60,353 bases of DNA from Acholeplasmataceae bacterium (GCA_007692425.1 RECG01000017.1:1-60353), one strand, 5' to 3'. Shown: positions 52,908-60,353, counted from the first letter of the stretch. The notes: generated from the letters alone by a model not told the origin. Numbers and translations are program-made.

Positions 52908-53126
52908 GACCATACCTCCTTGATATAAGAAAACGCCCTTAGAAAAACCTAAGGACGTATGATTACGCGGTGCCACCTTAGTTCCGGGAAATCCCGGCCC
53001 TCAATGCCGTTAAAGCCGGCTGACTGTACACTCCGAGGACCCATTTCAATCTGGTGATGCGGCCGGCTCTCACCAACCCGGCTCGCTTGACGCATCAATC
53101 AGACGTACTCTTCCTCTTCGACGTGC
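52908..53126 (-). promoter_or_regulatory. T-box riboswitch, tryptophan-specific, of trpS
   Basis: On the minus strand the hallmark T-box sequence AGGTGGCACCGCG is complete (around 52967-52980). Stem I with G-A-G-C-C-G-G-G and a specifier region G-A-A-A-TGG-G (TGG = plus 53041-53043) lies upstream. The terminator hairpin CCTTAGG/CTAAGG followed by GCGTTTT lies just before the trpS ribosome site (52928-52962). Uncharged tRNA-Trp would favour the antiterminator and switch trpS on. Confidence 0.93.
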
Positions 53127-53132
53127 ATGTTT

Positions 53133-56938: not shown

Positions 56939-56974
56939 ATGCTTGATGAAAAACATTCCAAGGAGGAAAATAAT

Positions 56975-57985
56975 ATGGCGATCAAAGTCGCAATCAATGG
57001 TTTTGGCCGGATCGGCCGTCTCGCTTATCGCTTGATGGCAGATGACAAGGCATTCAATGTCGTCGGCATCAATGACTTGACCGATGCCGAAACACTGGCG
57101 TATCTGCTCAAATATGATACGGCACAAGGTAGTTTCAAGACAGATGTCATCAGTTTCGAAGGATCGGATCTGGTGGTCGGAGACAAGAAGATTCCGATTT
57201 TCAGTGAAAAAGACCCCAAAGCACTTCCCTGGGGCAAGCTTGGTGTCGATGTCGTGCTTGAATGCACCGGATTCTTCACCAATGAGGAAAAAGCCGGCTG
57301 GCATCTGGAAGCCGGTGCCAAGAAAGTGGTTGTCAGCGCGCCCGCTTCAGGCAATGTCAAGACGATTGTCTATAATGTCAATGACGATACGCTTGATGGC
57401 ACTGAAAACATTTTGAGTGCAGCCTCATGCACCACCAACTGCCTGGCGCCCATCGCCAAGGTGCTCGATGACAATTTTGGCATCGTGCGTGGCATGATGA
57501 CCACCATCCATGCCTACACCAATGACCAGTCACTCATGGACCAACCCCACAAGAAGGGCATCATGTCCAGACGTGGACGGGCCGCCGCTGTCAGCGTCAT
57601 CCCCAGTTCCACTGGTGCGGCCAAGGCCATCGGTCTGGTGTTGCCGCAACTGAAAGGCAAACTGGACGGAACCGCCCTGCGTGTGCCGACGATCACCGGA
57701 TCGGTCATCGACCTGACTGTCGAACTCGCCAAAGAAGTCACGCTTGAAGACATCGATAACGCCTTCAAGGCCGCCGCCAATGAATCGTTGGCCTATGTCA
57801 GCGACCCGATTGTCTCCGCCGATGTCATCGGATCATTATATGGCTCGCTTTACGATGCCAATACGACCCAGATCGTCACCAGCGGTGGCAAGCAGCTGGT
57901 CAAGGTCATGGCCTGGTATGACAATGAAATGGGCTATGCGGCCCAATTGATCCGCATGGTACGCAAGCTGGCAAGCCTGATTTGA
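56975..57985 (+). CDS. gap: Glyceraldehyde-3-phosphate dehydrogenase
   Basis: 336-aa glycolytic enzyme making 1,3-bisphosphoglycerate, the substrate of Pgk encoded at 37 kb. I-N-G-F-G-R-I-G-R (Rossmann), S-A-A-S-C-T-T-N-C-L-A-P (catalytic Cys), the His in H-A-Y-T-N-D-Q and W-Y-D-N-E-M-G-Y are intact. The ATG at 56975 has AAGGAGG upstream. Monocistronic. Confidence 0.98.
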   Translation: MAIKVAINGFGRIGRLAYRLMADDKAFNVVGINDLTDAETLAYLLKYDTAQGSFKTDVISFEGSDLVVGDKKIPIFSEKDPKALPWGKLGVDVVLECTGFFTNEEKAGWHLEAGAKKVVVSAPASGNVKTIVYNVNDDTLDGTENILSAASCTTNCLAPIAKVLDDNFGIVRGMMTTIHAYTNDQSLMDQPHKKGIMSRRGRAAAVSVIPSSTGAAKAIGLVLPQLKGKLDGTALRVPTITGSVIDLTVELAKEVTLEDIDNAFKAAANESLAYVSDPIVSADVIGSLYGSLYDANTTQIVTSGGKQLVKVMAWYDNEMGYAAQLIRMVRKLASLI

Positions 57986-58025
57986 CCCATCTCAAAGCAT
58001 TGTTCAACTTGATTAAACAAATAAG

Positions 58026-58058
58026 AGACGCCCATCGTTGTGATGAGGCGTTTTTTTT
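58026..58058 (+). terminator. Terminator of gap
   Basis: ACGCC(C)ATC-GTTGT-GATGA-GGCGT followed by eight T. Confidence 0.87.
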
Positions 58059-58119: not shown

Positions 58120-58148
58120 TTGACATTATAACATCGATATTATAAAAT
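58120..58148 (+). promoter_or_regulatory. Promoter of the c-di-GMP-controlled secreted-protein operon
   Basis: TTGACA, 17-nt spacer, TAAAAT. The start would be near 58155, leaving a small hairpin (ATGCAAG-AA-CTTCGCAT, 58159-58176) before the riboswitch aptamer. Confidence 0.78.
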
Positions 58149-58181
58149 TGAGTCGAGATGCAAGAACTTCGCATTTCATTT

Positions 58182-58262
58182 CATAATGTTAAAGGCAAAC
58201 CTGGGGAAACCCAGCGACGCAAAACTATAGGGCCTGAAATGGTAGCCAGTTGTCATTACGTT
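58182..58262 (+). promoter_or_regulatory. Cyclic di-GMP-I (GEMM-I) riboswitch aptamer
   Basis: The conserved core is plainly visible: A-AGGCAAACC, a CTGGG-GAAA-CCCAG hairpin with GNRA tetraloop, GCGACGCAAA, then the P3 stem ACTAT/ATGGT around the tetraloop receptor AGGGCCTGAAA, and ATGGTAGCCAGTTGTC. The P1 closing strands are AATG and CATT. The base equivalent to G20 of the Vibrio Vc2 aptamer is G (58194), which favours c-di-GMP over cGAMP. It stands 133 bp ahead of the first secreted-protein gene with an expression platform between. Confidence 0.92.
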
Positions 58263-58266
58263 GAAA

Positions 58267-58368
58267 ACCCGTATAACGGGTCGATTCTGACGTTTGATAT
58301 CTGGATTTTTATTTGCAAAAAACAGAGAGTCAACGTCAGTGTCGAAAGCAGACATGTTGACTCTTTTG
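58267..58368 (+). promoter_or_regulatory. Expression platform: terminator and competing antiterminator
   Basis: After a small hairpin (CCCG-TATAA-CGGG, 58268-58280), CTGACGTT (58287-58294) can pair with AACGTCAG (58332-58339). The latter overlaps the left arm of an intrinsic terminator, AGAGTCAAC (58326-58334) with GTTGACTCT (58356-58364), inner TGTC/GACA, then TTTT. The two structures exclude each other, the arrangement of a transcription-control switch. Whether c-di-GMP turns it on or off cannot be read directly. Confidence 0.7.
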
Positions 58369-58394
58369 CTTGAATAAAGGAAGGAGGCGGAAGC

Positions 58395-58979
58395 TTGCGC
58401 AGTGCGAGATTGGCGCAAGGAGTGATCATTGTCGTGCTGTTGATTGCCTTGGGATTCACTTCCACCGCAGCGTTCGCCTATTGGCAAGACGTGACAAGTC
58501 TTGGCAATGTCCAAATCGAATTCAGCGGCGAAGATGCAACCCTGGAAATTGTCGAGCTTCATGAAACCTTTACAGGCAAGCTCGTACCTGAAGGACGCGC
58601 CTACTTCACAGATGAAGTCGAAGAAGTCGTCCTGCAGTACCAGGTGAGTATCAGCAGGGAGTTGGCACGGACAATGAACCTCATTGTCGAGGCGACACAA
58701 GTTTTGATTGAAGGTGACGATACGTATGCGCATCTGGTGGAAATCACCATCGATGGCAGCAAGAACAAAGTCGTCAGAGACATCTTCAATGAACTCGTGG
58801 TCGTCACTGTCACGGTAAGACTGATCGAACCGATTGACGCAGCAGAAGCTGCATTACTGGGTTTAGATCCCGAACGTGTGAATGTCGAAGATTCGGTTGC
58901 GGCATATCATGCGATTAAAGGGAAGACGGTCACGATTACATTAGGATTTGGTGTACAACCGAAAACAAATGGTAATTAA
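58395..58979 (+). CDS. Secreted protein with SipW-type signal (first of three)
   Basis: 194 aa. The start is TTG at 58395 with AAGGAGG upstream. An N-terminal basic region, a hydrophobic segment and the end F-A-Y-W-Q-D resemble the signal peptides of TasA/CalY-type proteins, which a SipW-like peptidase processes. The mature part (about 160 aa) is beta-rich and contains L-V-P-E-G-R-A-Y-F, V-V-L-Q-Y-Q-V-S-I, then an acidic C-terminal half. No known domain is certain. It is the first gene after the c-di-GMP riboswitch, suggesting a surface or matrix component. Confidence 0.78.
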   Translation: MRSARLAQGVIIVVLLIALGFTSTAAFAYWQDVTSLGNVQIEFSGEDATLEIVELHETFTGKLVPEGRAYFTDEVEEVVLQYQVSISRELARTMNLIVEATQVLIEGDDTYAHLVEITIDGSKNKVVRDIFNELVVVTVTVRLIEPIDAAEAALLGLDPERVNVEDSVAAYHAIKGKTVTITLGFGVQPKTNGN

Positions 58980-59019
58980 AAACAAAAAATAAAAAGGAAA
59001 TTTAAAAGGAGATTTTAAA

Positions 59020-59541
59020 ATGAGACAAAGAAAGTTAGTGATTGGTTTATTGGTTATTTTGGCATTGGTGACGTCTTCGTTCACCTATGCATATTGGTTA
59101 GATGGTATCACTCAAGCCACCAACACACCAGGTACAGTCACGATTGGTGAAGCTGGTGAAACCACAGTGACATTATTATTTGATGAAGCTTCTGAAGGTG
59201 ATTTGGTTCCCGATGGATACACAGGTGAAAGTACTTCTGTTTTGACATTTGATGTCGAATGGGATGCTGATGTTGCAGGCACTGCAGGTGGCTCAGGCAC
59301 ACTCGCTGTTTCAATCATTTCATATACGCTGGGTACATTGTCAGAAGAACAAATTGACCTTATGTTTGACATTAGCATCACAGCTGGTAATGGTGCTGCC
59401 ATTTCTGTTGGTGGAGGCGTTGTCAATGTACAAATCACTGTCTTCTTTGAAAACGAACCCGCAACACAAGCTATTTATGATCAAGTAGCCAACGGAACAC
59501 TATCTATCACGGTCAGCGTTACAGTTACCCCGAATACTTAA
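59020..59541 (+). CDS. Secreted protein with SipW-type signal (second of three)
   Basis: 173 aa. Signal segment ends in T-Y-A-Y-W-L-D; the mature part is small, acidic and Thr/Val/Gly-rich (beta-sandwich-like). It shares with the upstream protein the L-V-P-E/D-G motif and a beta strand-rich profile, so the two are probably distant paralogues. Its Gly/Ala/Thr composition suits a fibre-forming subunit. AAAAGGAG precedes the ATG. Third positions are visibly more AT-rich than in the housekeeping genes, hinting at a different origin or high expression bias. Confidence 0.8.
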   Translation: MRQRKLVIGLLVILALVTSSFTYAYWLDGITQATNTPGTVTIGEAGETTVTLLFDEASEGDLVPDGYTGESTSVLTFDVEWDADVAGTAGGSGTLAVSIISYTLGTLSEEQIDLMFDISITAGNGAAISVGGGVVNVQITVFFENEPATQAIYDQVANGTLSITVSVTVTPNT

Positions 59542-59574
59542 TAGTTAAAATATAACCATTTTATAATTAAATTT

Positions 59575-59598
59575 GAGCAGTTTTTTAGACTGCTTTGA
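59575..59598 (+). terminator. Weak terminator or attenuator between second and third secreted-protein genes
   Basis: AGCAGT-TTTTTAG-ACTGCT followed by TTT. The short stem and short T-run would allow partial read-through, giving more of the second protein than of the third. Confidence 0.5.
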
Positions 59599-59621
59599 TT
59601 GGTGTGAATCGAGGTGAAATC

Positions 59622-60353
59622 ATGAAAAAATTCCTACTAAAGTTCTTTACGACCATTTTCATGGTTTTATCTCTATCGACCGTAGTGGGACAATCGTATG
59701 CTTATTGGGTTAGCAACAGCAGTGTGTTGACAACACAAGAAGAAGGATTAGTTTCAATAGGCTTTTGGCAATTCTTGACAGAATTCGCCCAAAGTGTCAT
59801 CGCAATGGAAGATTGGGTTGATGCCAATTTCACCGCAACACAAAAAAACTGGTTGTATGACACCGCCTATTCTGTTCAAAAGCAAAACGAAACCATCGTC
59901 ATACAAGGATTAAGTGTTGACAACATCGATTGGATCATCACCGGAACTGGTACAGGTGGAAGCCAGCTTAGAACGATTGGCTATGTAAGCATTATCGATC
60001 GTTCTGTTAATGCCAGCAATCAACCCATTCACACCATCCTGCCAGTTGCGCCATCTGATCCCCCCCCCTATCCAGAATATAGTTTCTTCTTGTCAAACGA
60101 TGTCAATAACGCTCTTACAAACAACCTAAACAGCATCCGTTTGAACTATGCTGTCAACATTCGCACCGCAGGCACCGTGTCGGATGTCACCAACATCTCA
60201 TTTTATGCATCGCGTGGTTTGGCAGATGGTGACGGTGGTAGGCTTGTCAACCGGGCTTTCACGGTCAGTGTCAGCACCAATGCCAGCACATGGACCAACA
60301 TTGGGACCGCCACCCCTGGTGCACCAGCATCCAACAGCGTGAATTTCTCATTC
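59622..60353 (+). CDS. Secreted protein with SipW-type signal (third, cut by window end)
   Basis: 244 codons without a stop to the window end. The ATG at 59622 has GAGGTGA upstream. Signal peptide of about 28 residues ends in S-Y-A-Y-W-V-S, the same A-Y-W pattern as the two genes before. The mature part is larger and differs from theirs: many Asn/Thr/Ser residues, I-Q-G-L-S-V-D-N, a Pro run at about 150, and beta-strand-like N-F-S-F near the cut. It may be a minor or anchor component of the same structure. A SipW-like signal peptidase gene might follow outside the window. Confidence 0.75.
   Translation, partial: MKKFLLKFFTTIFMVLSLSTVVGQSYAYWVSNSSVLTTQEEGLVSIGFWQFLTEFAQSVIAMEDWVDANFTATQKNWLYDTAYSVQKQNETIVIQGLSVDNIDWIITGTGTGGSQLRTIGYVSIIDRSVNASNQPIHTILPVAPSDPPPYPEYSFFLSNDVNNALTNNLNSIRLNYAVNIRTAGTVSDVTNISFYASRGLADGDGGRLVNRAFTVSVSTNASTWTNIGTATPGAPASNSVNFSF

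Follow-up and report, generated by a model that had tools for sequence, protein, structure and literature searches.

In Bacillus subtilis, the tapA-sipW-tasA operon, which gives rise to TasA fibres, is controlled by the protein SinR (PMC9674648). Direct control by RNA has been described for other surface proteins, namely the riboswitch-controlled adhesins Cap/CbpA of Bacillus thuringiensis (PMC4933901, PMC7423583) and the targets of the c-di-GMP riboswitches of Clostridioides difficile (PMC6200980). Two leader architectures are also relevant: the double-terminator GEMM-I riboswitch Bc1 of B. thuringiensis, in which the second terminator stays folded and masks the response (PMC11218506), and Bc3-5, a triple-tandem c-di-GMP riboswitch (PMC4759541). 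In the open-access literature searched, no paper was found that joins a c-di-GMP riboswitch with the control of SipW or TasA, and the few co-mentions of these terms are, by title and abstract, reviews or unrelated genomes. The parts are known, but their conserved arrangement, a riboswitch ahead of a SipW operon, is not described in that literature.

The locus studied here lies at the end of a contig of an Acholeplasmataceae bacterium. The whole stretch of DNA that was analysed, hereafter the window, is the complete contig C23 (RECG01000017.1, 60353 bp) of a 1.45 Mb genome in 29 contigs, 97.8% complete. The closest kin of the host are wall-less Acholeplasmataceae, among them Peloplasma aerotolerans M4Ah, Mycoplasmatota strain zrk7 and a number of metagenome-assembled genomes (MAGs) of the family. 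Peloplasma is described as a free-living coccus without a cell wall, and the paper describing it makes no mention of c-di-GMP, GGDEF or signal peptidase (PMC11122141). Elsewhere in the window, a T-box leader precedes a tryptophanyl-tRNA synthetase gene (52948-53130, minus strand). The features of the locus are as follows.

56939-57985, plus strand: gapA (glyceraldehyde-3-phosphate dehydrogenase), an ORF of 348 aa, the conserved upstream neighbour of the operon.
58021-58058, plus strand: hairpin and T run ending the gapA transcript, stem ACGCC..GGCGT, then TTTTTTTT.
58120-58148, plus strand: sigma-70-like promoter, TTGACA-N17-TAAAAT, with 11 of 12 consensus bases.
58184-58257, plus strand: c-di-GMP-I (GEMM-I) riboswitch aptamer, matched by RF01051.
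58246-58313, plus strand: terminator-like hairpin T1; 5' arm 58246-58254, within the aptamer; 3' arm 58296-58304, then ATTTTTATT.
58287-58297, plus strand: antiterminator segment CTGACGTTTGA, which belongs to the 3' side of T1 and is complementary to the T2 5' arm.
58327-58367, plus strand: second terminator-like hairpin, T2, whose 5' arm starts at 58327 and whose 3' arm, at 58356-58363, is followed by TTTT; it lies directly before the ribosome-binding site.
58381-58387, plus strand: ribosome-binding site of Y1, AAGGAGG.
58395-58979, plus strand: Y1, secreted protein of 194 aa with a TTG start after AAGGAGG, a SipW-like signal peptide ending AFA-YW and a beta-rich mature domain.
59020-59541, plus strand: Y2, secreted protein of 173 aa with a signal peptide ending TYA-YW and a predicted beta-sandwich.
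59575-59595, plus strand: hairpin and T tail between Y2 and Y3, conserved in relatives, probably a partial terminator (attenuator).
59622-60353, plus strand: Y3, large secreted protein with a signal peptide ending SYA-YW, open at the contig end, 244 aa visible.

We propose that the c-di-GMP-I riboswitch acts as the transcriptional ON switch of an operon of SipW-processed surface proteins, a reading to which, as a whole, we give a probability of about 0.62. The operon resembles tapA-sipW-tasA in its small size, in encoding secreted proteins that are beta-rich and bear signal peptides and, in the complete relatives, in having a dedicated peptidase of the SipW type (Ser/His); it differs in being placed under an RNA sensor of c-di-GMP instead of SinR. 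As for Cap/CbpA and the C. difficile targets, a c-di-GMP riboswitch stands directly upstream of surface-protein genes; unlike those systems, which are adhesins or pili of walled bacteria, it would govern a multi-gene SipW-type operon in Acholeplasmataceae.

The sequence-only reading had placed a GEMM-I aptamer with a promoter and a terminator ahead of three genes whose signal sequences end in A-Y-W. The aptamer was borne out in place and kind, as the covariance model RF01051 gave a significant match over its full length (model positions 1-87; 61.6 bits against a gathering cut-off of 35; E 1.2e-9), and the leader folds far more stably than shuffled sequences (z -3.7). The promoter fared less well: the TTGACA-17-TAAAAT site is present with 11 of 12 matches, but the number of promoter-like sites, of which it is one, is no higher than in shuffled sequences (5 counted, 4.8 in shuffles), so that the site, weak alone, is supportive only. 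A G at the position equivalent to G20 is typical of c-di-GMP over cGAMP recognition. The window aptamer has G at this position, AAAGGCAAA matching the consensus. In genus g5, two aptamers (L104:8801-8875 and L108:4505-4579) carry A in place of the first G of GGCAAA, the G20 equivalent, and may favour cGAMP. The genome of the host encodes nine GGDEF domains, so that c-di-GMP is probably made by the cell.

Downstream of the aptamer, the fold predictions yield the two terminator-like hairpins T1 and T2, and the folds computed for the leader are mutually exclusive. In the window, the pair probability of T1 falls from 0.87 in the free leader to 0 when the aptamer 3' end is held, and that of T2 from 1.0 to 0.05, while pairing of the antiterminator segment with the T2 5' arm rises from 0 to 0.86. 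The same design recurs among the leaders of this operon type (type A): in the minimum-energy folds of 22/22 leaders the 3' end of the aptamer is paired to an arm further downstream, usually followed by a U run, and the free-state probability of T1 is at least 0.76 in every one of the 22. The leader of a second operon in the same genome, on contig C1, shares the T1 design (GCCAGCTGTCAT ... ATGACGCTGGC-TTTTT). Because the ligand-bound aptamer needs the same bases as T1, the ligand should prevent termination, and the riboswitch is predicted to be ON with c-di-GMP. Compared with shuffled arms, the T1 duplex is not outstanding in many single leaders, including that of the window (p 0.16), and since such single-arm controls are often non-significant, weight is placed on the repeated architecture of the leaders. 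Native T1 arms also pair only moderately better than swapped pairs, and covariation is therefore not claimed for T1.

The behaviour of T2 is less uniform. As in Bc1, a single GEMM-I aptamer is followed by two predicted intrinsic terminators; unlike in Bc1, the predicted effect of the T1 3' side, in the window as in several relatives, is to open T2. At equilibrium this release is predicted only in some leaders, and partly; a clear T2 is absent from 3 of 22 by the same test, and in many leaders a terminator-like T2 persists in both states. The behaviour of Bc1 (PMC11218506) counts against release of T2 in the proposed switch. The persistence of T2 agrees with an alternative in which the riboswitch is of the OFF type or acts on translation, so that the surface proteins would be expressed less when c-di-GMP is bound. 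As general background on the same side, many GEMM-I switches are of the OFF type. We nevertheless consider this alternative unlikely, as T1 uses the aptamer 3' end in all 22 leaders and again in the second operon of the genome, and the ligand should block T1.

That the riboswitch belongs to these genes is indicated by its conservation. With the Y1 alignment as query, 84,980 genomes gave 23 homologous loci, all of them in Acholeplasmataceae or in MAGs labelled Tenericutes, Bacillota or Erysipelotrichaceae; Y1 is 44-58% identical to its homologues in the best segment and 45-59% in alignment A1. RF01051 scores above cut-off upstream of Y1 in 22/22 testable loci, 105-192 nt away and in the same orientation, the 23rd locus being left out of the count for Ns upstream. 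This conservation already refutes the idea that a GEMM-I riboswitch of some other gene merely came to lie beside unrelated secreted proteins; we found no evidence for such a chance neighbourhood, and with similar spacing and the same orientation in every testable locus its probability is close to nil.

In relatives, the type A block reads gapA, RF01051, Y1, Y2, Y3, SipW, a membrane protein of about 205 aa, SipW and ung. The complete operon occurs in eight loci (L064, L068, L075 and L078-L082), and in L076 without Y3, with gapA as upstream neighbour in all nine; the relatives with the complete operon include the cultured Peloplasma aerotolerans. At L075:9972-10546 (G035, a complete genome) Y1 is seemingly split by a frameshift. 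Beyond what is found in tapA-sipW-tasA, the operon of the relatives has a pair of peptidase genes, a gene for a membrane protein and one for a large protein with CBM5/12 modules. Its peptidases reach 79 bits with TIGR02228 (cut-off 51.85) and carry the Ser and His (SM and H motifs) expected of ER-type peptidases. In four relatives the first of the two SipW proteins is changed, Ser to Thr or Gln and His to Tyr or Ala; these paralogues, devoid of both catalytic residues (L068:6250-6822, L079:5015-5581, L080:7885-8469 and L082:7337-7912), are possible pseudoenzymes that have been retained.

The sequence-only reading had asked for a search for a SipW-type peptidase downstream of the three genes. 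One is encoded directly downstream in every complete relative; in the genome studied here, profile searches with TIGR02228 and PF00717 gave weak matches only and none is detectable, the contig ending before the expected place. Since the window is a complete contig, no sequence downstream of 60353 can be read in the RECG01000017.1 assembly. The genome also lacks ung and trmFO, conserved downstream neighbours of the operon, and as these are missing together with SipW, an assembly gap just past the end of C23 is the simplest reading, though this is not proof. Two of the weak matches were ruled out as SipW, one on C21, which is an ordinary signal peptidase I, and one on C25, which lies in a reading frame opposite metabolic genes. 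Congeners likewise showed no SipW-type peptidase by HMM; in one of them, G002, the second type of operon does encode a relative of SipW (E 1e-30).

The link between riboswitch and peptidase extends beyond this locus. Across 61 related genomes, a TIGR02228 peptidase is encoded no more than 8 kb away from 60/91 riboswitches, where about 1.9 would be expected by chance placement; riboswitches of one cluster are not independent, and counted by cluster, 46/77 have a SipW-type peptidase at 10 kb or less. Among the 105 riboswitches listed from outside the order, at least 22 have a listed SipW at such a distance, in four further families, so that no fewer than four other families of the class show the link. 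In one of those families, L117 and L118 encode homologues of Y2 (hhalign 99.5% with the signal, 98.8% for the mature part).

The three consecutive ORFs with A-Y-W signal ends were confirmed (AFAYW, TYAYW and SYAYW), and the motif is not due to chance, as it is conserved at the same place in orthologues. Y1 and Y2 share a homologous mature part (hhalign 98.4%). The further view that the three proteins are of the TasA/CalY kind is so far not supported. A profile of PF12389 members matches Y2 in the signal and first strand only (residues 1-43, 94.5%), a resemblance of the signal region to camelysin-family proteins that is shared with tapA-sipW-tasA, whereas the mature domains reach 0.4% (Y1) and 1.1% (Y2) with hhalign against a small profile of such members and, unlike those of that operon, are not recognisably TasA/camelysin. 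PF12389 (Peptidase_M73, TasA/camelysin) itself has no match among the window proteins, and its best score in the genome is 14.0 against a cut-off of 22.5; a weak match on C17 was dropped, as it sits in a region of phosphonate-transporter-like genes. With TIGR04088 (SipW-dependent secreted proteins), Y1 scores 10.4 and its L064 orthologue 12.3 against a cut-off of 19, and Y2 and Y3 are not listed. No Pfam or NCBIfam model reaches its cut-off for Y1, Y2 or the visible part of Y3, in keeping with the sequence-only reading that the mature domains are unrecognised, and searches of PDB sequences gave chance-level matches only. Y1 and Y2 therefore look like SipW clients by their signals, while their mature domains do not support membership of the TasA/camelysin family.

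It could be argued that A-Y-W is the usual end of a signal peptide, cut by the ordinary signal peptidase I, and that the SipW-type peptidases serve something else. The genome does encode an ordinary signal peptidase I (L007, TIGR02227, 96 bits), and SipW is undetectable in it. SipW-type peptidases are, however, co-encoded in all complete operons; the pairwise identity of Y2 homologues is 73% in the signal against 33% in the mature part, as expected for a dedicated protease, and the Y2 signal matches that of the camelysin family. We regard cleavage by the ordinary enzyme as quite improbable.

The fold of the subunits was approached with structural models. The AlphaFold2 model of Y2 is a beta-sandwich of fair confidence (pLDDT 80.5, pTM 0.76), which has the beta-sandwiches of CBM3 and of cohesins among its fold neighbours, at Z of about 5. 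Searches with the Y1 and Y2 models returned no solved fold at Z of 8 or above, and TasA is absent among the neighbours listed for Y2, which is not evidence against a TasA fold. The neighbours of Y1 (WSSV envelope proteins and pilins) were left unused, as they fall below Z 8 and the Y1 model is of low confidence (pLDDT 61).

Y3 aligns with its relatives at only about 20% identity. CBM5/12 (CBM_5_12, PF02839) is found above cut-off in 8/8 complete Y3 homologues tested, pointing to chitin or cellulose as a possible target; the 244 visible aa of the cut copy in the window show no such match. A run of nine C in the Y3 frame (60060-60068, plus strand), the only C or G run of eight or more in the window, is a possible slippage site, at which a change of length could switch Y3 on and off.

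A recurrent hairpin suggests that the proteins of the operon are made in unequal amounts. Past the end of Y2, 19/22 loci (0.3 expected from shuffles) have a hairpin with T tail, with arms that differ among genomes yet remain complementary, the window copy being among the weaker ones; in the Y1-Y2 gaps of the same loci no such hairpin was found. It looks like a partial terminator through which, in the manner of subunit operons, Y1 and Y2 would outnumber Y3 and the peptidases, and its recurrence suggests that the subunits are made in excess. Y2 is the probable main subunit.

These observations bear on an alternative that keeps the operon and its riboswitch and makes the products soluble or membrane-bound secreted binding proteins, for example for capture of polysaccharide, with no polymerisation. 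The CBM5/12 modules of the Y3 homologues, the CBM3 and cohesin neighbours of Y2 and the absence of any TasA or pilin fold with Z reaching 8 would all suit such proteins, but the tandem of related small proteins, the attenuator hairpin and the dedicated SipW-type peptidases fit the logic of a subunit operon, and no degradative enzyme is seen in the operon at the loci of the relatives. We hold this alternative to be rather unlikely, and prefer that of a SipW-processed surface structure.

A second type of operon accompanies the first. On contig C1 of the same genome (L005:2-2633), a second RF01051 match of 60.4 bits sits behind three GGDEF or GGDEF-EAL genes and precedes proteins of 238, 321 and 237+ aa, the last cut by the contig end; signals of the second and third end in TFAWI and TFAWF (A-W-[FI] type). 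The type B operons of relatives run on beyond these genes: SipW is followed by a membrane protein, which has an AAA-like region scoring below the Pfam cut-off, and by a DUF2357 protein, a further SipW and additional A-W-F proteins. Both types occur in the same genomes. At L058, L060-L063 and L116, the membrane/AAA-like and DUF2357 genes follow SipW and one to four riboswitches stand in tandem. The type B loci read thus share with Bc3-5 the presence of tandem GEMM-I aptamers in one leader, two to four in relatives, a feature that sets Bc3-5 apart from the single aptamer of the window. One congener has a c-di-GMP-I riboswitch ahead of a gene whose product resembles type IV pilins at its N-terminus (L072:1-1664, G001:C231).

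We propose the following series of events. Without ligand, the aptamer 3' end would pair with the downstream arm to form T1, T2 would also form before the ribosome-binding site, and the RNA would be cut short. Binding of c-di-GMP would fold the aptamer and block T1; in the window, the freed 3' side of T1 would then pair with the 5' arm of T2, and the polymerase would read into Y1, Y2 and Y3 and, in complete relatives, on into the two SipW-type peptidases and the membrane protein. Y1 and Y2, as related beta-sandwich proteins, would be released by a SipW-type cut, their excess being set by the partial terminator after Y2. The product is likely to be a coat or filament on the cell surface, by which the wall-less cell would attach to polysaccharide at high c-di-GMP. 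Aptamer, conserved operon, SipW linkage, Y1/Y2 homology and the CBM modules of relatives are computed results on which this model is built; ligand, direction of switching, cleavage, assembly and attachment are what we infer from them. The sequence-only reading had an RNA sensor of c-di-GMP switching a fibre or matrix operon directly: riboswitch, operon and SipW link agree with direct RNA control of putative surface proteins, whereas for the fibre we hypothesise from operon logic. A bolder extension, in which these loci form an undescribed and widespread surface-filament system of wall-less bacteria, with riboswitches (often in tandem), SipW-processed subunits, a carbohydrate-binding partner and a two-terminator relay where the T1 3' side dissolves T2, is put forward tentatively, at a little under even odds.

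Operons for TasA-type matrix are known under protein regulators such as SinR, and an RNA sensor of c-di-GMP would act in one step, here in bacteria that lack a cell wall, as described for Peloplasma (PMC11122141) and in contrast to the host of tapA-sipW-tasA. Proteins of this kind are normally tied to the wall. The proposal gives a concrete idea, open to testing, of the means by which free-living Acholeplasmataceae may attach and of the role of their GGDEF proteins and riboswitches. The complete operon is present in a cultured species, Peloplasma aerotolerans. If it is true, attachment would be switched on directly from RNA.
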